Source of the DNA: Skermanella mucosa
Lineage (GTDB): Bacteria; Pseudomonadota; Alphaproteobacteria; Azospirillales; Azospirillaceae
Direction of reading: 5' to 3'
DNA length: 64,000 nucleotides
Assembly: GCF_016765655.2 (NCBI RefSeq)
Contig: NZ_CP086106.1
Coordinates: forward strand, 1,548,501-1,612,500
Shown piece by piece: positions 7,102-55,168 of the stretch; within the stretch, counting starts at the first letter, position 1; every line of letters starts with the position of its first letter. The notes below the pieces were generated by a model. It did not search any database, had not been told where the DNA came from, and saw only the letters and a program-made list of their open reading frames with translations. The position numbers and the translations under genes were made by a program.

Positions 7102-7410
7102 CTATTCCGCCGGGTGGTGCGACAGCGCACCCGGCTTGGCGGCCGAAGCCTGCCGGGCCCGCTGCGGCATTCCGGCGCGCAGTACGACCGACGTGCCGAA
7201 CATGATCAGCCCGACCGTGAAGATCAGGACGGATGCCAACGCCGCGAAGGCCGAACGGGTCTGATCCAGCCACAGCATCAGTCCGGCCGCCGCGAAGCAG
7301 GCGAAACCCCCCAGCCCGATCAGGTCCGCCGCCGGTCCGATATTGAAGGGAGTGTTCTTCAACCGTTGCTTGATGTCCTGTGCCCAGGTGCTTGCCGTTG
7401 CGTAAATCAT
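7102..7410 (-). CDS. Small inner-membrane protein of unknown function (102 aa)
   Basis: Predicted 102 residues starting MIYATASTWAQDIKQRLKNT. Two transmembrane segments follow, around residues 30-50 (IGLGGFACFAAAGLMLWL) and 57-78 (FAALASVLIFTVGLIMFG), and then a basic cytoplasm-type tail. The start at 7410 is preferred over an upstream in-frame start at 7485, whose added residues look non-coding. The ribosome site is weak either way. No conserved domain is recognised. The gene is convergent with the 50-residue membrane protein before it and divergent from the coiled-coil gene after it. Confidence 0.6.
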   Translation of the reverse strand: MIYATASTWAQDIKQRLKNTPFNIGPAADLIGLGGFACFAAAGLMLWLDQTRSAFAALASVLIFTVGLIMFGTSVVLRAGMPQRARQASAAKPGALSHHPAE

Positions 7411-15218: not shown

Positions 15219-15230
15219 TGCGAAAACGCA
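15219..15230. promoter_or_regulatory. Operator-like palindrome site 1 (TGCGAAAACGCA)
   Basis: One of six 12-base sites of consensus TGCG-N4-CGCA in this island. It lies 102 bases upstream of the repressor gene start, paired with a second site 52 bases downstream. The placement suggests autoregulation by the adjacent HTH/S24-like protein. The link between protein and site is inference. Confidence 0.6.
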
Positions 15231-15270
15231 GGAATATCCGCTGATATCTTCTCATTTCCAGTCCTCTCCT

Positions 15271-15282
15271 TGCGAATTTGCA
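15271..15282. promoter_or_regulatory. Operator-like palindrome site 2 (TGCGAATTTGCA)
   Basis: Second site of the repressor-gene pair, 50 bases before the chosen ATG. It matches the consensus with one base off in the right half (TTTGCA versus TCGCA). Confidence 0.55.
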
Positions 15283-15331
15283 TGATTGTCATCATCGTGC
15301 CGCGGTTTTCAGCAGACGGGGAATTTGGCCA

Positions 15332-15982
15332 ATGCAGCAGATCAGGGAGTCGCTTCACCGCTGGCTTCGGTCCGTGATGGAGGAGCGGGACTGGACGGCC
15401 GCCACCTGGGCCAAGCGCGCCGACGTGACCGCGACCAACCTGACCCGCTTCCTCAAGGACCCCGAGGGCGCCAGCCTGCCCAGCGCGGAGACCATCGGGC
15501 GGTTGGCCTTCGCCGCCGGGTCGGAGCCGCGCTTTCTGTCCAGCAACCAGCCCTCGACCTCCTCCTGCCGGGTTCCCGTGCTCAGCCACGAGCAGATCCG
15601 TGCCGTCATGGACCTGCCTCGCGCCGGGGCTGCGGCGTATCTGGCCGATGCCTTGCGCCGCGGCTCCCCGTGCGTCCTGATGGACCGGCCGACCTCGCCG
15701 CGCGCCTTCGGGCTCCAGATCAACTCGCTGCACATGAACGCGGGCGGCCTGCTGCCCCAGGACCAGATCGTGATCGAGCCAGTCGACCATGTCCCTCCCC
15801 GGAAGGGCGACATGGTGATCACGATCGACGGCACCTCGCTGTGCGCCTACCGATACTATCACCCGCAGCTCGTCCCGGTCAGCACTGACCCCCATTGCTG
15901 CCCGATGGTCATCGAGGGCGCCGAGATGGTCGGCGTCGCGATCCTGGTGGTTCGCCCCCTGAGGGTCGAACTGATGAGCTGA
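15332..15982 (+). CDS. Phage-type repressor: HTH plus S24/LexA-like domain
   Basis: 216 residues. The N-terminal third is an XRE-type helix-turn-helix (WAKRADVTATNLTRFLKDPEGASLPSAETIGRLA). After a linker, residues about 130-216 resemble the all-beta S24/LexA C-terminal domain (LPQDQIVIEPVDHVPPRKGDMVITIDGTSL... VIEGAEMVGVAIL). A catalytic Ser can be suggested in INSLHMNAGG, but the expected Lys position reads as CAYRYY, so self-cleavage may be lost. ATG 15332 follows GGGGAA. An earlier in-frame ATG at 15278 would cover operator-like site 2. It is the first gene of a recombination island and probably controls the paired TGCG-N4-CGCA sites. Confidence 0.8.
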   Translation: MQQIRESLHRWLRSVMEERDWTAATWAKRADVTATNLTRFLKDPEGASLPSAETIGRLAFAAGSEPRFLSSNQPSTSSCRVPVLSHEQIRAVMDLPRAGAAAYLADALRRGSPCVLMDRPTSPRAFGLQINSLHMNAGGLLPQDQIVIEPVDHVPPRKGDMVITIDGTSLCAYRYYHPQLVPVSTDPHCCPMVIEGAEMVGVAILVVRPLRVELMS

Positions 15983-16054
15983 GCCGACCCCGCCGGCCCC
16001 CGAACCCCTCCCGGGGACCGGCAAGATTCCTCCCCGTAGTTCTCATTTTGTTCT

Positions 16055-16082
16055 TTGTTAAATGCGAAATCGCAGTTAACAT
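16055..16082 (+). promoter_or_regulatory. Candidate promoter of the YqaJ-annealase-SSB operon
   Basis: TTGTTA at 16055-16060 and TAACAT at 16077-16082 are separated by 16 bases. The palindrome TGCGAAATCGCA sits between them, so a bound repressor would block RNA polymerase. Predicted by eye only. Confidence 0.4.
16063..16074. promoter_or_regulatory. Operator-like palindrome site 3 (TGCGAAATCGCA)
   Basis: A perfect palindrome except for the central AA/T bases, located in the candidate promoter spacer ahead of the exonuclease gene. It is the upstream member of a pair. Confidence 0.62.
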
Positions 16083-16116
16083 TAGCGGAGCTATGCCCAT
16101 ATAGGGATGACTCAAA

Positions 16117-16128
16117 TGCGAAGCTGCA
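16117..16128. promoter_or_regulatory. Operator-like palindrome site 4 (TGCGAAGCTGCA)
   Basis: Second site of the pair before the exonuclease gene, 54 bases after site 3 and 20 bases before the start codon. It deviates by one base in the right half. Confidence 0.52.
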
Positions 16129-16147
16129 GCGGGTCAGGGATCGACAG

Positions 16148-17071
16148 ATGGCTTTGTCCAAGGATCAGGTAGAATTCCGGGCCCGCCGCCTGGGCTCCAG
16201 CGACGCGGTCCGCGTGATGGCGGGCCACTGGACGGAGCTGTGGCGCGAGAAGACGGGCCGGGCCGCCCCGCCGCGGCTGGACTTTGTTCCCGTCGTCCAG
16301 ATCGGCATCGCGACCGAATCACTGCATGCCCGCTTCTACACCTACCGCACCGGGATCGGAGCTTATCCGGCCGGCCACCGCACCCATGTGCACCCCGACC
16401 ACGACCATATCGTCGCCAACCTCGACTTCCTGACCTGGGGCGCTCCGCCGGCCGATCCGACGGCCGCCCCGGACACCATCCTGGAGGCCAAGTTCCATTC
16501 CGGCTTCAAGACGGACGAGGACCTGGCGGAACGGTACTACTGGCAGATGCAGCACCAGATGATGGTGTCCGGCCTGGCCCGCTGCGTCCTCTCCGTCCTG
16601 CGTCCGACCGGCTATTCCTTCCTGACGGTCGAGCGGAACGAGGCCGACGCCGCCCTGCTGCTGGAGACCATCCAGGCCTTCTGGTGGCACGTCGAGAACG
16701 ATCTGGAGCCGGCCGACCCGCTGCCGGTGGAAGCACCCGACTTCGACGACATGGGCGTGCTCGACATGTCCATGCACAACCGGTTCGTCGCGGTGGGCGA
16801 CGTGCTGGTCAGCAACCACGACGGCGTCCAGGCCTACCGCGCCGCCGAGGCCGAGCTGAAGGCCCTGATGCCCGAGCAGGCGAAGGTCGCCTATGTCCCG
16901 TCCGCCGCCGACGCCCGGGGCATCGTGATCAGCCGCTCGCGCGACGGCAGGCTGTCGATCCGCATCGGCGAGCTGCCGCGGAAGTACCGGGCCCGGGCTC
17001 GGACCTGGCTGCCGGACCACGCGCCCGACTTTCTGCCCGACCTGATGAACGCCCGACCTGATGAACGATGA
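16148..17071 (+). CDS. YqaJ/lambda-exonuclease-like recombination nuclease
   Basis: 307 residues from ATG 16148, preceded by AGGGA. It belongs to the YqaJ viral recombinase branch of the PD-(D/E)XK nucleases, which resect double-strand ends 5' to 3' for single-strand annealing. Visible motifs are LGSSDAVRV at residues 15-23, Asp93 in VANLDFLTW, and Glu113-x-Lys115 in ILEAKFHSG, followed by YYWQMQHQMMVSG (QxxxQ-type helix). The C-terminal part, about 190-307, is helical and less conserved. First gene of an operon with a Rad52-like annealing protein, whose potential start overlaps this stop, and SSB. Phage-type nuclease without surrounding phage genes. Confidence 0.88.
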   Translation: MALSKDQVEFRARRLGSSDAVRVMAGHWTELWREKTGRAAPPRLDFVPVVQIGIATESLHARFYTYRTGIGAYPAGHRTHVHPDHDHIVANLDFLTWGAPPADPTAAPDTILEAKFHSGFKTDEDLAERYYWQMQHQMMVSGLARCVLSVLRPTGYSFLTVERNEADAALLLETIQAFWWHVENDLEPADPLPVEAPDFDDMGVLDMSMHNRFVAVGDVLVSNHDGVQAYRAAEAELKALMPEQAKVAYVPSAADARGIVISRSRDGRLSIRIGELPRKYRARARTWLPDHAPDFLPDLMNARPDER

Positions 17072-17090
17072 GCGTTGGAGAAACCGACCC

Positions 17091-17861
17091 ATGCCACGAG
17101 CAAGGAGGCCGGCCGACGGGCCGGAAACGGAGACCATGACCACCGGGATGCCGGGTGACAACATCATGCGCGACAACCTTGAGTTCTGGAACGCGCTGAA
17201 GCGCACCGATCCCAAGGCGACCAAGCCGTTCCAGCGCGCGGGCGGCTTCCGCGGCACCCAGATCGATCCGGCCTGGCGGCTCCAGATGATGACCGAGGTG
17301 TTCGGCCCGGTCGGCAAGGGCTGGGGCTACGAGCAGCTTGAGTGGACCATCGCCGAGCGCATGGTCTTCATCTGCTGCCGCGTCTGGTACGTCGACCCGG
17401 AGACCGGCGAAAAGCATTTCACCGGCCCGCAATGGGGCGGCACCGAGATGGTCCGGCGCAACCGCGACGGAACGGAGCGCCCGGACGACGAGTGCTTCAA
17501 GATGTCGATGACCGACGCCATCGGCAAATGCATGCTCCAGATCGGCTTGGCCGCCGACATCTATCTCGGCCAGTTCGACGACAGCAAGTACCGCGAGGAG
17601 TCCGAGACCATCTACGCCGTCAAGGCCAACCCCGACCTCCAGCCCGCCGGCATCGCCAAGCTGGAGGCGGAGATCCGGGACAGGCTGGCGGAGGTCGAGG
17701 ACCTGGAAGCCCTGGACGACCTGTGGCGCAGCGGGATCAACGCCCGTATCCGCGAGATCGGGGCGGTCGACAAGGCGGCGCAGAACCGCATGATCACCTG
17801 CTTCTCGCAGAAGAAGAACGAAATCCTGAAACGAGAGGAGAGCGACCGCGAGGCCGCCTGA
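17091..17861 (+). CDS. Rad52-like single-strand annealing protein
   Basis: About 256 residues. The core from about residue 26 (MRDNLEFWNALKRTDP) shows the Rad52/DdrA/Sak-type pattern: GPVGKGWGYEQLEW, then HFTGPQWGGTEM, then DECFKMSMTDAIGKCMLQIGLAADIYLGQFDDSKY, the K..TDA..K....G.......FDD.KY signature of phage annealases. The C-terminal part, about 165-256, is a charged helical region. Start is uncertain: 17061 (overlapping the exonuclease stop), 17091 (GGAG ten bases upstream, used here) or 17136 are in frame. Together with the exonuclease and SSB it makes a complete Red/RecET-like recombination set. Confidence 0.82.
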   Translation: MPRARRPADGPETETMTTGMPGDNIMRDNLEFWNALKRTDPKATKPFQRAGGFRGTQIDPAWRLQMMTEVFGPVGKGWGYEQLEWTIAERMVFICCRVWYVDPETGEKHFTGPQWGGTEMVRRNRDGTERPDDECFKMSMTDAIGKCMLQIGLAADIYLGQFDDSKYREESETIYAVKANPDLQPAGIAKLEAEIRDRLAEVEDLEALDDLWRSGINARIREIGAVDKAAQNRMITCFSQKKNEILKREESDREAA

Positions 17862-17893
17862 GGCAGCACTCCCGGTCCCCGAAGAGGCCAGCC

Positions 17894-18295
17894 ATGTACC
17901 AACGTTTCATCGCCGTCGGCCGCCTGGGCCGCGATCCCGAGATCACCACGACGGCCGGCGGCGCCCGCATGGCGAGCTTCAGCCTGGCAACCAGCGAAAC
18001 CGCCAAGGGCGAGGAGCGGGCCGAATGGCACCGCTGCGTCGTCTGGGACGAGAAGCTGGTCGACGTGATCGCCAGGCGTGCCCGCAAGGGAACCCTGGTG
18101 GCCCTTGAGGGCCAGGTCCGGACCCGCCGCTGGAACAGCAGGGACGGGCGCGAGAACCACACGACCGAGGTCGTGCTGGACCGCTTCACCAGCCGTTTCC
18201 AGATCCTGTCCGGCGCCAAGCCGCAGGACGATGTGGTCGAAGCCAACCAGCCGGTTTTCGACAAGAGATTCGCCTTCGATGAGCTGCCCTTTTGA
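17894..18295 (+). CDS. ssb: Single-stranded DNA-binding protein (short, phage-type)
   Basis: 133 residues with a single OB fold: MYQRFIAVGRLGRDPEI at the N terminus, ASFSLATSE, AEWHRCVVWDEKLVDVIARRARKGTLVALEGQVRTRRW, and a C-terminal acidic tip FAFDELPF, equivalent to the DDIPF tail that recruits recombination and replication proteins. It is shorter than the usual chromosomal SSB because the linker is brief, and it lies 32 bases after the annealing protein, so it probably serves the island rather than general replication. The N-terminal VGRLGRDPE pattern is standard. Confidence 0.92.
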   Translation: MYQRFIAVGRLGRDPEITTTAGGARMASFSLATSETAKGEERAEWHRCVVWDEKLVDVIARRARKGTLVALEGQVRTRRWNSRDGRENHTTEVVLDRFTSRFQILSGAKPQDDVVEANQPVFDKRFAFDELPF

Positions 18296-18299
18296 TGGC

Positions 18300-18311
18300 T
18301 GCGATATCGCA
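18300..18311. promoter_or_regulatory. Operator-like palindrome site 5 (TGCGATATCGCA)
   Basis: A perfect 12-base palindrome starting 5 bases after the ssb stop. First of the pair in front of the two small unknown genes. Confidence 0.62.
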
Positions 18312-18342
18312 ATTTTCGGCGGCGACACCATCTATATTAGGC

Positions 18343-18354
18343 TGCGCAAGCGCA
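18343..18354. promoter_or_regulatory. Operator-like palindrome site 6 (TGCGCAAGCGCA)
   Basis: Second site of this pair, 43 bases after site 5. A possible -10 element TATATT (18333-18338) lies between the two sites, consistent with promoter control. The match to TGCG-N4-CGCA is exact. Confidence 0.58.
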
Positions 18355-18394: not shown

Positions 18395-18733
18395 ATGACG
18401 ATGATAGCCTCTTCCAACAAGATTGAGTCCAGTTCCGGCGAGCTGTTCCGCTCCCCCAGCGGTCTGCTGACCCGCACCGCCTGGGAAGACGAACTGGAAA
18501 GCACGTTCGACCAGATGCCGCGCTGGTACCGTTCCGCGGCGGAGCGGGACCGCCGGTTCGCCCGCTGGGTCCACGCCGAGGCCAAGGGCCTCGCCTGCCA
18601 CCTCGACCGACTGATGCGCCCGGACACCAAGCCCGCGCTGGCGCGCCATCTCAGGGCGGTTTCCGAAGCCCTGTGGGCCGACGCCGAATGGGCGCGCCAC
18701 CGGATCGACGGCAGCATGGACGAGGCGGCGTAA
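18395..18733 (+). CDS. Unknown protein of the recombination island (112 aa)
   Basis: 112 residues, soluble, mildly acidic N terminus (MTMIASSNKIESSSGELF) followed by a helical, Arg/Ala/Trp-rich body (WYRSAAERDRRFARWVHAEAK). No domain is recognised. Ribosome site is weak. It lies behind operator-like sites 5 and 6 and 19 bases before the next small gene, so the two form a small operon likely sharing regulation with the annealase operon. Confidence 0.62.
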   Translation: MTMIASSNKIESSSGELFRSPSGLLTRTAWEDELESTFDQMPRWYRSAAERDRRFARWVHAEAKGLACHLDRLMRPDTKPALARHLRAVSEALWADAEWARHRIDGSMDEAA

Positions 18734-18752
18734 GATGCGAAGGAAGCCTGAA

Positions 18753-19070
18753 ATGACCATAGAGCAATTGCAGAAGCGCCTGCGCGAGGCCCATGCCCGC
18801 ATCGGCTTCGAGGGCCGCTTCGCCTTCACCATCGGCCAGCAGGACGGTCCGCCGGCCGGCGCCGGCTGCTATGTCACGCACTGGTTCCGCCCCACGCCCT
18901 ACGCCTTCGAGGACTGCAAGTCGGTCGGGGCCGGTACCGTGGCGGATTGCGTCGCGGCGCTGGACCGTTATGTCGCGGAGTATCCCAGGGCCATGACCAA
19001 CGAGGAAGTCGGCATGACCCTGGGCATCATCCCGCCCCACGAGGAGCGTTACAAGGTCGCGGCGGAATGA
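18753..19070 (+). CDS. Unknown protein of the recombination island (105 aa)
   Basis: 105 residues starting MTIEQLQKRLREAHARIG. The start at 18753 has GAAGGAAG upstream. An in-frame ATG at 18735 lacks a good site. The protein reads as a small alpha/beta domain (GRFAFTIGQQDGPPAGAGCYVTHWFRPTPYAFEDCKS) with a helical tail (TVADCVAALDRYVAEYPRAM). No family recognised. Its 3' end overlaps the convergent gene at 19049-19372 by 22 bases. Confidence 0.65.
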   Translation: MTIEQLQKRLREAHARIGFEGRFAFTIGQQDGPPAGAGCYVTHWFRPTPYAFEDCKSVGAGTVADCVAALDRYVAEYPRAMTNEEVGMTLGIIPPHEERYKVAAE

Positions 19071-19372
19071 CCGCCGGCGTACCGGCCCGCCGGGGCCGGC
19101 GGGAAGCCTTGGTGACGCCCCTCGTGGCGTGACCCGTACTTGCCCACGTAACCCTTCATGCAGGCACGGTGGAACCGTTGCGACTGGGTCTTCCAGTCGT
19201 CGCCGGGCCGGACCCAGCTGACATAGGTCGTGCCGGTCCTCCGGTCGGTCCGCAGGTAGCGGCCCACTCCCTTGTCGCCCGTCACCCACTGGCCCGGCTG
19301 AAGATGCAGGGCTCCGGCGGACAGCAGCAGGGAAACCTGCGGCGTCAGGTCGATGGTCGGCAGGTATCTCAT
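19049..19372 (-). CDS. Unknown basic protein (107 aa), convergent
   Basis: 107 residues starting MRYLPTIDLTPQVSLLLSAG. The start is well supported by CAGGAGAGG upstream. The first half (LHLQPGQWVTGDKGVGRYLRTDRRTGTTYVSWVRPG) resembles a small beta-barrel surface. The second half is basic (RHEGRHQGFPPAPAGRY) and ends SAATL. It could be a nucleic-acid binding protein, but nothing specific is recognised. It is the only minus-strand gene within the island and has no copy of the TGCG-N4-CGCA site. Confidence 0.6.
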   Translation of the reverse strand: MRYLPTIDLTPQVSLLLSAGALHLQPGQWVTGDKGVGRYLRTDRRTGTTYVSWVRPGDDWKTQSQRFHRACMKGYVGKYGSRHEGRHQGFPPAPAGRYAGGHSAATL

Positions 19373-19493
19373 CTCTATCGCCTCTCCTGGAAATGTCCAC
19401 GGTACAGGCATGCCCAAGGCCGACGGTCCTGGCGGTGCGCCAAGGCGGTCGGAACGGAAACGGCAGCTTTCGGGGACAGCTTATATGTGGTGT

Positions 19494-19582
19494 TTCTTGG
19501 ACATCTTTCAAGAACCATTGGCAGAACAAAACATGAACTTGTAAGCTGCCTGAAGACCCCTTTCAAGAATTTGGAACAAGAA
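19494..19582. promoter_or_regulatory. Cluster of CAAGAA hexamers upstream of 19585 gene
   Basis: TTCTTG at 19494-19499 and CAAGAA at 19509-19514 form an inverted repeat with a 9-base gap. CAAGAA recurs at 19564-19569 and 19577-19582, and the 10-mer CTTTCAAGAA occurs at 19505 and 19560. The region is more AT-rich than its surroundings. Possibly a regulator binding region for the gene starting at 19585. No regulator is identified. Confidence 0.4.
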
Positions 19583-19962: not shown

Positions 19963-22200
19963 GTGGCAATGACAGCGGTCCAGCACAGGGTGGAAACCCA
20001 GACCCGGCCGGCATCGCCCGCGCCGGACCGGGAGGTTCTCGCCGGTCTGGTCGAGCGGGTGACCTTCCACAATGCGGAGAACGGTTTCTGCGTTCTCCGC
20101 ATCAAGGCGCGCGGCCATCGCGACCTGATCACCGTCGTGGGCCATGCCGCCGCGATCTCGGCGGGCGAGTTCGTCCAGGCCAGCGGCGCCTGGCATAACG
20201 ACCGCACCCACGGCCTCCAGTTCAAGGCCGGGTTCCTGCGCACGACCATGCCGACGACGGTGGAGGGGATCGAGAAGTATCTCGGCTCCGGCATGATCCG
20301 CGGCATCGGCCCGGTCTATGCGAAGAAGCTGGTCCGGGCGTTCGGTGCCGACGTGTTCGACGTGATCGAGCAGCAGGCCGACCGCCTGCGCGAGGTGGCC
20401 GGGATCGGCCCGGTCCGGGCCAAGCGGATCATCGCCGGCTGGGCCGACCAGAAGGTGATCCGCGAGATCATGCTGTTCCTTCACTCCCACGGGGTCGGCA
20501 CCTCGCGCTCGGTCCGCATCTTCAAGACCTACGGGCCTGACGCGATCCAGCTCATCTCCGAAAATCCCTACCGCCTCGCCCGCGACATCCGGGGCATCGG
20601 GTTCGTCACCGCCGACGCCATCGCCGCCCGCCTCGGCATCGAGAAGACCGCCATGGTCCGGGCCCGCGCCGGCATCGCCTATGCCCTGGCCGAGGCCATG
20701 GACGAGGGGCATTGCGGCATGCCGCGCGACGATCTGCTGAAGCTGGCCGAAAAGCTCCTGGAGATCCCGTCCCCCCTGATCGAGGAGGCCATCGACCTGG
20801 AACTGGCCGATGGGACCGTCGCGGCGGACCGGCTCGACGGGCGCGAGGCCGTGTTCCTGTCCGGCCTCTACCGGTCCGAACACAACATCGCCGCGCGCCT
20901 GCTCGGCCTTGCCGCGGGGCGCCCGCCTTGGGGCGCCATCGACGTGGCCACCGCGATCCCCTGGGTCGAGCAGCGCACCGGCCTGACCCTGGCGGAGAGC
21001 CAGCGCGCCGCTGTCCGGCTCGCGGTGTCGTCCAAGCTCCTGGTGGTCACCGGCGGCCCCGGGGTCGGCAAGACCACGCTGGTCAATTCGATCCTGAGGA
21101 TCCTGTCGGTCAAGGGCCTGTCCATCGCGCTCGCCGCCCCTACGGGCCGGGCGGCCAAGCGCCTGTCGGAAAGCACCGGGATGGAGGCCAAGACGATCCA
21201 TCGGCTGCTGGAGACCGACCCCGCCGCCGGCGGCTTCAAGCGCACCGAGACAAATCCGCTGGAGTGCGAGTTGCTGGTGGTGGACGAGACCTCCATGGTC
21301 GACGTGCCCCTGATGAATGCCCTGTTGCGCGCCGTGCCCGACCGTGCCGCCGTCCTGCTGGTCGGCGACGTCGACCAGCTTCCCTCCGTAGGACCCGGGC
21401 AGGTGCTGGCCGACGTGATCGATTCGGGCGCGGTGCCGGTGGTCCGGCTGACCGAGGTGTTCCGGCAGGCCGCCGAGAGCCGGATCATCGTCAACGCCCA
21501 CCGGGTCAACCAGGGCCTGATGCCGGAGCCTCCCGCCGGCGAGGGCCTGACCGACTTCTATTTCGTGGATGCCGCCGATCCCGAAGACGGCGTGCGCAAG
21601 CTGATCCATATGGTCAAAGACCGCATCCCCCGCCGCTTCGGCCTCGACCCCGTGCGCGACATCCAGGTGCTGTGCCCGATGAACCGGGGCGGGCTGGGCG
21701 CCCGGTCGCTCAACATCGAGCTTCAGAAGGTGCTCAACCCCCCGCGCGACCCCCGCGTCGAGCGGTTCGGCTGGACCTTCTGCGAGGGCGACAAGGTGAT
21801 GCAGATCGAGAACGACTACGACAAGGAGGTCTATAACGGCGACCTCGGCGTGGTCTCCCGCATCGATCCCGACGACAATTCCCTGCTGATCGAGTTCGAC
21901 GGCCGCGAGGTCGCCTACGACGCCGGCGAGCTCGACCAGGTGGTGCTGGCCTATGCCACCACGATCCACAAGTCCCAGGGATCGGAATACCCGGCCGTGA
22001 TCCTGCCGGTCACCACCCAGCACTACGCCATGCTCCAGCGCAACCTGGTCTATACCGGCATCACGCGCGGCAAGCGCCTCGTGGTGATCGTCGGCCAGCG
22101 CAAAGCGATGGCGATCGCCGTCAAGGGTCAGCAGACCCGCCGCCGCTGGTCGAAGCTGCGCGACTGGCTGGGCGGCGCCGCGCCGCCGGACGCGCCGTAG
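19963..22200 (+). CDS. recD2: RecD2-like ATP-dependent DNA helicase
   Basis: 745 residues, SF1B 5'-3' helicase of the RecD2/YrrC type that acts without RecBC. The N-terminal OB-like domain (VERVTFHNAENGFCVLRIK) is followed by helix-hairpin-helix segments (GSGMIRGIGPVYAKKLVRAFG, VAGIGPVRAKRII). Walker A (VTGGPGVGKTTL) is near residue 363, Walker B (LLVVDETSMVD) near 440, Q-rich motif III (VGDVDQLPSVGPGQVL), and C-terminal motifs QVLCPMNRGGLG and YATTIHKSQGSEYPAVILP. The GTG at 19963 is chosen because AGGA lies 7 bases upstream. An ATG two codons later is the alternative. It closes the recombination island and is followed by a HEAT-repeat gene. Confidence 0.92.
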   Translation: MAMTAVQHRVETQTRPASPAPDREVLAGLVERVTFHNAENGFCVLRIKARGHRDLITVVGHAAAISAGEFVQASGAWHNDRTHGLQFKAGFLRTTMPTTVEGIEKYLGSGMIRGIGPVYAKKLVRAFGADVFDVIEQQADRLREVAGIGPVRAKRIIAGWADQKVIREIMLFLHSHGVGTSRSVRIFKTYGPDAIQLISENPYRLARDIRGIGFVTADAIAARLGIEKTAMVRARAGIAYALAEAMDEGHCGMPRDDLLKLAEKLLEIPSPLIEEAIDLELADGTVAADRLDGREAVFLSGLYRSEHNIAARLLGLAAGRPPWGAIDVATAIPWVEQRTGLTLAESQRAAVRLAVSSKLLVVTGGPGVGKTTLVNSILRILSVKGLSIALAAPTGRAAKRLSESTGMEAKTIHRLLETDPAAGGFKRTETNPLECELLVVDETSMVDVPLMNALLRAVPDRAAVLLVGDVDQLPSVGPGQVLADVIDSGAVPVVRLTEVFRQAAESRIIVNAHRVNQGLMPEPPAGEGLTDFYFVDAADPEDGVRKLIHMVKDRIPRRFGLDPVRDIQVLCPMNRGGLGARSLNIELQKVLNPPRDPRVERFGWTFCEGDKVMQIENDYDKEVYNGDLGVVSRIDPDDNSLLIEFDGREVAYDAGELDQVVLAYATTIHKSQGSEYPAVILPVTTQHYAMLQRNLVYTGITRGKRLVVIVGQRKAMAIAVKGQQTRRRWSKLRDWLGGAAPPDAP

Positions 22201-54331: not shown

Positions 54332-55168
54332 ATGAGATCGATCCTGAACCTTCCGCCCCACGCGACCCCGGCGCAGCGCGCCTGGCATGTGGGACTGTGG
54401 GCGATCACGGTCCTCGTGCTGGGATTCCTGGTCCTGCCGATCCTGGTGATCGTCCCCCTGTCGTTCAGCAGCGGTTCGTTCCTGAATTTTCCGCTGCCGG
54501 GGCTCTCGCTGCGCTGGTACCAGGAACTGCTGGAGTCGGAGCGCTGGCTGTCATCGCTCCGCAACAGCGTGGTGGTCGCCTGCGCCGCCACCCTGCTCGC
54601 GACGGTCCTGGGAACGCTGGCGGCGCTGGGACTGCAGCGGGCGAGCTTTCCCGGCCGCTCGCTGCTCCTGGCGCTGGTGATCTCGCCCATGGTGGTGCCG
54701 CTGGTGATCGTCGCGGTCGGCGTTTATTTCTTCTACGCGCCGCTGGGGCTGACCGGCAGCCTGGTCGGCCTGACGCTGGCCCATACCGCGCTGGCCGTGC
54801 CCTTCGTCGTCATCACCGTGTCGGCGACGCTCCAGGGGTTCGACGCCAACCTGTCCCGCGCGGCGGCCAGCCTGGGGGCCGATCCGGCGACTTCGTTCTT
54901 CCGGATCACGCTGCCGATCATCCTGCCCGGCGTGGTGTCGGGCGCGCTGTTCGCCTTCGTCACGTCGTTCGACGAGGTGGTGGTGGCGCTCTTCCTGACC
55001 GGCCCGCAGGAGCGCACCCTGCCGCGCCAGATGTTCGACGGCATCCGGGAGAACATCAGCCCGGTCATCGCCGCAGCCGCGACCCTCCTGATCGTGCTGT
55101 CGGTCCTGCTGATGACGGTCATGGAAGCCCTGCGGCGCCGGGGCGAACGCCTGCGCGGCATCCGCTGA
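54332..55168 (+). CDS. ABC transporter permease, PotC-like
   Basis: 278 residues with about six helices. The N terminus (WAITVLVLGFLVLPILVIVPLSFSSGSFLNFPLPGLSLRWYQELL) is typical of PotC/PotI. EAA loop LSRAAASLGADPATSFFRITLPIILPGVVSGALFAFVTSFDEVVVALFLTGPQERTLPRQMF near residues 185-240. ATG 54332 with GAGGCGGGC upstream. An earlier in-frame start at 54284 overlaps the PotB-like gene and is less likely. Final component of the importer. Confidence 0.92.
   Translation: MRSILNLPPHATPAQRAWHVGLWAITVLVLGFLVLPILVIVPLSFSSGSFLNFPLPGLSLRWYQELLESERWLSSLRNSVVVACAATLLATVLGTLAALGLQRASFPGRSLLLALVISPMVVPLVIVAVGVYFFYAPLGLTGSLVGLTLAHTALAVPFVVITVSATLQGFDANLSRAAASLGADPATSFFRITLPIILPGVVSGALFAFVTSFDEVVVALFLTGPQERTLPRQMFDGIRENISPVIAAAATLLIVLSVLLMTVMEALRRRGERLRGIR

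Follow-up and report, generated by a model that had tools for sequence, protein, structure and literature searches.

A resident Red-like recombination operon of the Skermanella-Azospirillum group that seems to be held off by two locks, LexA and an apparently uncleavable LexA-fold repressor

Introduction

Most known Red-like recombinases come from phages and mobile elements. In lambda Red, RecET and SXT Exo/Bet, as passages of PMC3118119 and PMC4381043 describe them, a nuclease of the YqaJ/lambda-exonuclease family is encoded beside an annealing protein and a single-stranded DNA-binding protein (SSB). We analyzed a similar gene set in 64,000 nucleotides of Skermanella mucosa (positions 1,548,501 to 1,612,500 of contig NZ_CP086106.1, "the window" below), where an exonuclease gene of that family (EXO), a gene for a candidate RAD52-like annealing protein (ANN) and an SSB gene follow a gene for a putative repressor (REP). 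Unlike in those systems, the annealer has no Pfam match, the genes are resident in genomes that also have AddA, and the exonuclease promoter combines a LexA box with paired sites for what is probably the island's own repressor. In the Skermanella-Azospirillum group this operon seems, from its promoter, to be held off by two locks, not one.

Control by LexA together with a second factor has precedents. At rstA/rstR of CTX phage, according to passages of PMC3323433, LexA and a phage-type repressor act jointly and rstR is itself LexA-controlled; the reference list of that study includes a paper on cooperative RstR binding. CTX is a mobile filamentous phage of Vibrio, whereas the genes described here form a recombination module that is kept in many genomes, has its 12-bp palindromes in pairs and uses a different repressor. 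Colicin genes are silenced by LexA plus AsnC or IscR, which delays their output in the DNA-damage (SOS) response (PMC4482635); that second factor is a global regulator, in contrast to the dedicated neighbor found here. With lambda CI and LexA, of the S24 fold, REP shares a predicted LexA/CI-like C-terminal fold, paired operators that would suit dimer-dimer contact and perhaps a helix-turn-helix (HTH), but by alignment it lacks the catalytic lysine, is hardly recognized by the S24 profile of Pfam and has operators five helical turns apart.

Searches of the open-access literature, outside which most subscription papers fall, showed no description of a recombination operon of this kind in the alphaproteobacterial SOS regulon, and nothing joining YqaJ with Azospirillum or Skermanella with DNA repair and recombinase. 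Open-access papers on YqaJ and LexA were phage or recombineering papers, judging by titles, the starts of abstracts and passages of PMC4381043. The novelty seems to lie in a cellular module that is widely kept, doubly controlled and equipped with a LexA-fold repressor that is apparently uncleavable.

Results

A LexA box and paired palindromes share the exonuclease promoter

The initial annotation had described six 12-bp palindromes of the form TGCG-N4-CGCA, paired in three intergenic regions, and had read them as a private regulon of the adjacent repressor. All six are present, starting at 15219, 15271, 16063, 16117, 18300 and 18343, and they are paired as described, with start-to-start distances of 52 bp before REP, 54 bp before EXO and 43 bp before two small genes, sm1 and sm2 (Table 1). 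The form is exact in four of the six, while the sites at 15271 and 16117 end in TGCA. That annotation made no mention of a LexA box, although one stands, exact, at 16039-16053, directly before the first palindrome of the EXO promoter; since this promoter has both, the regulon is not wholly private.

The box, GTTC-N7-GTTC, matches exactly the LexA motif of the alphaproteobacterial SOS regulon as given in portions of PMC3323433 and PMC12700426. In controls, an exact box preceded lexA in all 11 genomes examined and recA in 7 of 11 (one at -339), with GTAC-N7-GTTC before recA in all 11. Judged by its letters, the EXO promoter carries the LexA-regulon box in the form used by the host's own lexA.

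We followed this promoter through 145 related genomes; of the 33 named loci, 26 belong to Azospirillum. Among the 48 genomes with EXO, 44 have an exact box no more than 260 bp from the gene. In 43 of the 48 promoters the exact box starts 23-24 bp upstream of operator 1. Across the loci as a whole, island boxes included, the mean is 0.04 exact boxes per 260 bp. Boxes with one mismatch often arise by chance and were given no weight; genome G040 has one at the standard place, and G007 has an exact box elsewhere, over operator 2. The complete composite element (LexA box, 8-9 bp, operator, 40-42 bp, operator) was present in 44 of 48 promoters, G040 included, and missing from G007, G029 and the two genomes without REP (see below). 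In 33 of the 44 composite promoters, TTGAAA, TTGAAT or TTGAAC and a CATATT are 17 bp apart with operator 1 between them, and the corresponding hexamers of the window are taken as its putative -35 and -10. An alternative promoter, TTAACA-18-TATAGG at 16076-16105, is possible; it would lie between the operators.

LexA boxes also occur at other promoters of the island. A second one precedes a small reverse-strand gene, sm2r, and is exact in 5 of the 7 genomes with that gene, this one included. It has no REP palindromes beside it, and the promoters under SOS control thus seem to overlap with those under REP control without being the same set. An exact box was found in 19 of 47 REP promoters; 18 of these, from a single set of Azospirillum-type genomes, have it between -54 and -74. 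At ANN's own promoter, G029, G007 and G012 (loci L040, L047 and L147) have an exact box. A third exact GTTC-N7-GTTC in the window, at 54463-54477, brings the count to three per 64 kb, close to random expectation, as 8 of 100 shuffles have at least that many.

Operator pairs accompany the repressor gene

REP, EXO and ANN were each found in 48 of the 145 genomes, all three together in 46. The exceptions are G012 and G016, with EXO and ANN and without REP, and G033, with REP and without the other two. The REP match of G097 is 60 residues long and covers the DNA-binding HTH part only; that genome is counted among the 48 and left out of the 47 REP proteins compared below.

Using a pattern drawn solely from the six sites of the window, we detected pairs before 38 of 43 non-Skermanella EXO genes, a set that includes the two without REP. 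Over the spacings searched, 13-120 bp, these pairs were at 52 bp (4 promoters), 53 bp (13) or 54 bp (21) and at no others. By comparison, 2470 control windows from the same loci yielded two with two sites and none with a pair at 52-54 bp. A weight matrix gave scores of at least 27.5 to 45 of the 46 EXO promoters of REP-bearing genomes and 21.1 to the last, G029, while 960 base shuffles reached at most 16.5; the matrix is partly circular, being trained on strict pairs from the same promoters, a circularity that the window-only pattern avoids. The EXO promoters of the two genomes without REP scored -15.5 and -10.2 and had no pair. The pair is also present in G058, where the exonuclease operon and REP are on different contigs, and, at 53 bp, in SYSU D60014 (L151), which is not in the 48-genome tables.

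The initial annotation had assigned the palindromes to the adjacent REP by their confinement to the island. Gene co-occurrence, together with pairs at EXO where REP is present and none in the two genomes where it is not, gives this assignment comparative support and suggests that REP is their binder. The third pair, at 43 bp before sm1, was found only in Skermanella, where it occurs in 5 of 5 genomes. Where ANN is transcribed separately (G007 and G029), it has one strong site. In the genomes without REP, the ANN promoter has a LexA box and no palindrome in G012, and neither in G016.

Pairing, not the single site, exceeds chance

Single exact sites are no more frequent in the window than expected: there are 5, one of them unpaired at position 7118, against 3.62 expected, and 34 of 100 shuffles reach 5. 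Matches to TGCGANNTCGCA with up to two mismatches number 27 in the window against 49.7 expected. Pairs were searched for in the whole genome of 7,840,710 bases, with the pattern TGCG-N4-YGCA, 24-50 bp, TGCG-N4-YGCA. It occurs at five forward places, three of which are the pairs of the island, in good agreement with their proposed confinement; the reversed control pattern occurs at none. Of the other two places, C3:289646 resembles, by eye, a terminator hairpin with a T run, and C1:148341 is inside open reading frames. The strict form TGCGAWWTCGCA has two places in the genome, both in the island (window positions 16063 and 18300). Pairing, not single sites, exceeds chance.

A looser pattern (TGCR-N4-YGCA twice, 30-44 bp apart) has at least one match in 86 of the 145 relatives and is not specific alone. 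Further regulon members elsewhere were sought without success: all five strict sites found outside the island in relatives are within open frames of at least 90 codons, which is little informative in GC-rich DNA, and they share no mutual DNA similarity. One Skermanella genome has two sites 24 bp apart outside the island, TGCAGAATCGCA and TGCGAATTCGCA (G002:C1:2626849, L229).

A predicted LexA-fold repressor that by alignment lacks the catalytic lysine

The HTH_31 profile matches all 30 REP members scanned, weakly (best E 8.2e-6); for the window protein, E is 0.0092 and the score of 16.7 bits is under the cut-off of 27. Pfam S24 matched 1 of the 30, at E 0.015. For an AlphaFold2 model of REP (predicted local distance difference test, pLDDT, 86.5; predicted template modeling score 0.61), all nine Foldseek hits with E up to 0.001 are LexA or lambda CI, and the C-terminal domain alone gave template modeling (TM) scores against LexA/CI folds of up to 0.67 over the target. 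On this model, the C-terminal domain is of LexA/CI-like fold.

In an alignment to UmuD, the position of the catalytic lysine is occupied by Tyr in 46 of 47 REP proteins and by Phe in the other, with no Lys at residues 171-174 of any, and a Ser-Lys dyad was not found. The catalytic Ser position is Ser in 37, His in 9 and Thr in 1, the window protein being in the His/Thr group. Because the catalytic lysine is absent, REP should not cleave itself, and we call it apparently uncleavable; it may act like the self-cleaving LexA/CI repressors, and we do not class it as one. The C-terminal domain has Cys171 in 47 of 47 proteins and Cys189 in 46, a possible redox or ligand site. In a plasmid collection, REP was found in 11 Azospirillum records, all replicons of 0.88-2.05 Mb, of which 8 are non-mobilizable and 3 mobilizable.

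Operon genes and neighbors

The features are collected in Table 1. ANN best matches a RAD52-like single-strand annealing protein adjoining EXO: human RAD52 is the best Foldseek fold (E 3.9e-5, TM 0.31 over the query) for a model of moderate confidence (pLDDT 68.8). Among 15 phage relatives listed for ANN, two are annotated as annealing proteins and the others as exonucleases or hypothetical. The SSB gene stands at the locus in the five Skermanella genomes and in SYSU D60014. No family was found for sm1 in Pfam or NCBIfam, and neither small gene has a convincing one (best E-values 0.06 to 0.19).

The C-terminus is -AA or -AAE in all 48 ANN proteins, -AA in sm1 (47 of 47) and -AAE in most sm2 (40 of 48). 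Such tails resemble ClpXP degrons, and would fit a short-lived response.

Two further roles were considered and set aside. Replacement of AddAB is not supported: AddA, the subunit searched, was matched in all 81 genomes of the family, 79 of them over the cut-off. For an anti-phage defense system, there was no convincing PADLOC model among eight island proteins: the helicase matches many helicase-type models, EXO matches PD-T4-5 at E 0.049, and the other six match none.

Table 1. Genes and sites of the island, in window positions
Feature	Position	Strand	Description
Operator 1, repressor promoter	15219..15230	.	TGCGAAAACGCA; read directly; partner 52 bp off; pair in 5/5 Skermanella
Operator 2, repressor promoter	15271..15282	.	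TGCGAATTTGCA
REP	15332..15982	+	Putative Cro/C1-type HTH and predicted LexA/CI-like C-terminal domain, by alignment without catalytic Lys; one match in genome
LexA (SOS) box	16039..16053	+	GTTCTCATTTTGTTC; exact GTTC-N7-GTTC; directly before operator 1
Putative -35	16055..16060	+	TTGTTA; from promoter comparison; TTGAAA or TTGAAT in most Azospirillum
Operator 1, exonuclease operon	16063..16074	.	TGCGAAATCGCA; within putative 17-bp promoter spacer
Putative -10	16078..16083	+	AACATT; from promoter comparison; CATATT in most Azospirillum
Operator 2, exonuclease operon	16117..16128	.	TGCGAAGCTGCA; spacing 52-54 in relatives
EXO	16148..17071	+	YqaJ/lambda-exonuclease family; Pfam YqaJ E 1.1e-12, 48.9 bits (cut-off 22); phrog_434 RecE-like exonuclease
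ANN	17091..17861	+	Candidate RAD52-like single-strand annealing protein; phrog_7838; best PDB folds human RAD52
SSB	17894..18295	+	Pfam SSB; C-terminal tip LPF
Operator 1, small-gene promoter	18300..18311	.	TGCGATATCGCA; 43-bp pair in 5/5 Skermanella
Operator 2, small-gene promoter	18343..18354	.	TGCGCAAGCGCA
sm1	18395..18733	+	Small conserved gene; C-terminus -AA
sm2	18735..19070	+	Small conserved gene; C-terminus -AAE
sm2r	19049..19417	-	Small gene downstream of second LexA box
Second LexA box	19524..19538	-	GTTCATGTTTTGTTC; no REP palindromes beside it; before sm2r
RecD2 helicase	19963..22200	+	TIGR01448; adjoins module in several genera

Discussion

We read the island as a resident phage-derived Red-like recombination operon, encoding the exonuclease, the candidate RAD52-like annealer, SSB and the two small proteins sm1 and sm2, under two repressors, LexA and REP, and put the probability of this reading at roughly three in four. 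LexA would bind the box next to the -35 region, and REP would bind both palindromes, of which one is located in the putative promoter spacer and the other farther downstream. Operators 52-54 bp apart are separated by five helical turns and those 43 bp apart by four, so that REP dimers would be on one face of the DNA, where they could touch and close the promoter; cooperative binding is suggested by the spacing alone. REP would further repress its own gene, as well as the sm1-sm2 promoter in Skermanella.

After DNA damage, LexA should disappear through RecA-driven self-cleavage, but REP, apparently lacking the catalytic lysine, should stay. It could therefore serve as a second lock or brake, holding the operon off in undamaged cells and curbing its output once damage has occurred. 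Where the REP promoter itself has a LexA box, in 19 of 47 genomes, none of them Skermanella, REP levels would climb together with the operon and shut the response down, giving a pulse; in Skermanella, self-regulation is the only control expected for REP. A two-key arrangement is a more doubtful extension. Full expression would then require both the removal of LexA by SOS and a second signal that releases REP, such as an antirepressor from a phage or a change in redox state detected through Cys171/Cys189. If so, annealing recombination of the Red type would be deployed only when damage coincides with that signal.

Several observations weigh against control by two repressors as set out here, or against parts of it. 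The proposed loss of cleavage depends on a weak profile alignment of REP to UmuD (E about 0.07), most Azospirillum REP proteins keep the aligned Ser, and a serine two residues from that position, Ser132, is kept in 46 of 47. Before REP itself, 10 of 47 genomes have a pair (52 or 53 bp), 35 a single site and 2 no site. The 46 genomes with all three genes are interrelated, so their counts are not independent, and the control without repressor consists of two genomes. The looser pair pattern occurs also in 39 of 98 genomes without full-length REP and is not diagnostic alone; position relative to genes therefore matters. Strict single sites were found outside the island in four of nine genomes searched (2 in G007 and 1 each in G002, G004 and G074). 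The Skermanella -35 and -10 hexamers are poor, and a consensus promoter scan missed them. There is no exact LexA box in Skermanella REP promoters, and the pulse idea does not apply here as such. Finally, EXO and ANN distances track those of core genes poorly. REP distances follow those of RecA plus LexA (Spearman 0.58, Mantel p 0.008, 9 genomes), ANN distances do so weakly (0.24, p 0.03, 10 genomes) and EXO distances do not (0.13, p 0.23, 10 genomes). Simple vertical inheritance was rejected on these figures, which suggest that EXO did not merely follow the core genes; the enzymes may have moved or been replaced.

The island could be a domesticated prophage remnant, its immunity repressor still sitting on former early genes that have no present cellular role. 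We think this unlikely, though the exonuclease and annealing families are phage families and Azospirillum phage Cd has an ANN relative with 39.5 percent identity. No operators or LexA boxes were found within 10,672 bases at that phage gene. The viral contig IMGVR_UViG_3300003322_000534 (L212 4955-5288) encodes, just ahead of a YqaJ-like gene, a protein of 72 residues related to REP in its HTH only. TGCR-N4-YGCA sites precede the two genes, TGCACAAACGCA the HTH gene and TGCATTAATGCA its YqaJ-like neighbor. This protein was the one REP relative among viral contigs, and 50,697 phage records gave no REP match. A remnant also fits poorly with three genes that stand together, nearly always once, in 46 genomes, and with a module tied to LexA boxes and RecD2. 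What was examined showed no sign of a prophage: the neighbors are ordinary genes in Azospirillum thermophilum (L214), by its annotation, and in the window, whose flanks were read by eye, no prophage scan having been run. Phage origin is likely, the lack of a cellular role is not.

That REP controls the island alone, the GTTC-N7-GTTC box being incidental, has a low probability. The REP sites do track the presence of REP, none of the 47 upstream regions of sm1 has an exact LexA box, and the EXO promoter of G029 has no box even with one mismatch allowed. Against this stand the exact box 23-24 bp before operator 1 in 43 of 48 EXO promoters, the low density of exact boxes across the loci, and the exact box before separately transcribed ANN in G007, G029 and G012, the last without REP, though not in G016.

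We give still less credence to a binder other than REP, such as an unrelated regulator or a site-specific recombinase, with REP merely traveling along. Sites of the resolvase type are also paired, and the link between REP and the palindromes rests on comparison of genomes. That comparison places at least one site before REP itself in 45 of 47 genomes and none before EXO where REP is missing, and it fixes the sites relative to the LexA box; no site-specific recombinase match was found among the island proteins scanned (nine in one scan set, eight in another). Least probable of all is that REP activates the operon; CI-type proteins can both activate and repress, but operator 1 in the putative spacer and operator 2 downstream are at places suiting repression.

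The proposed control by LexA and REP together has a wider bearing. In a family best known for plant-associated nitrogen fixers, a Red-like recombinase seems to form a resident module of the cell, alongside AddA in the same genomes, and to be wired into the SOS response with a dedicated second repressor. Its compact composite promoter allows AND-type or pulse control of DNA repair to be tested directly, and the module is a source of a native recombinase and repressor for Azospirillum genetics.

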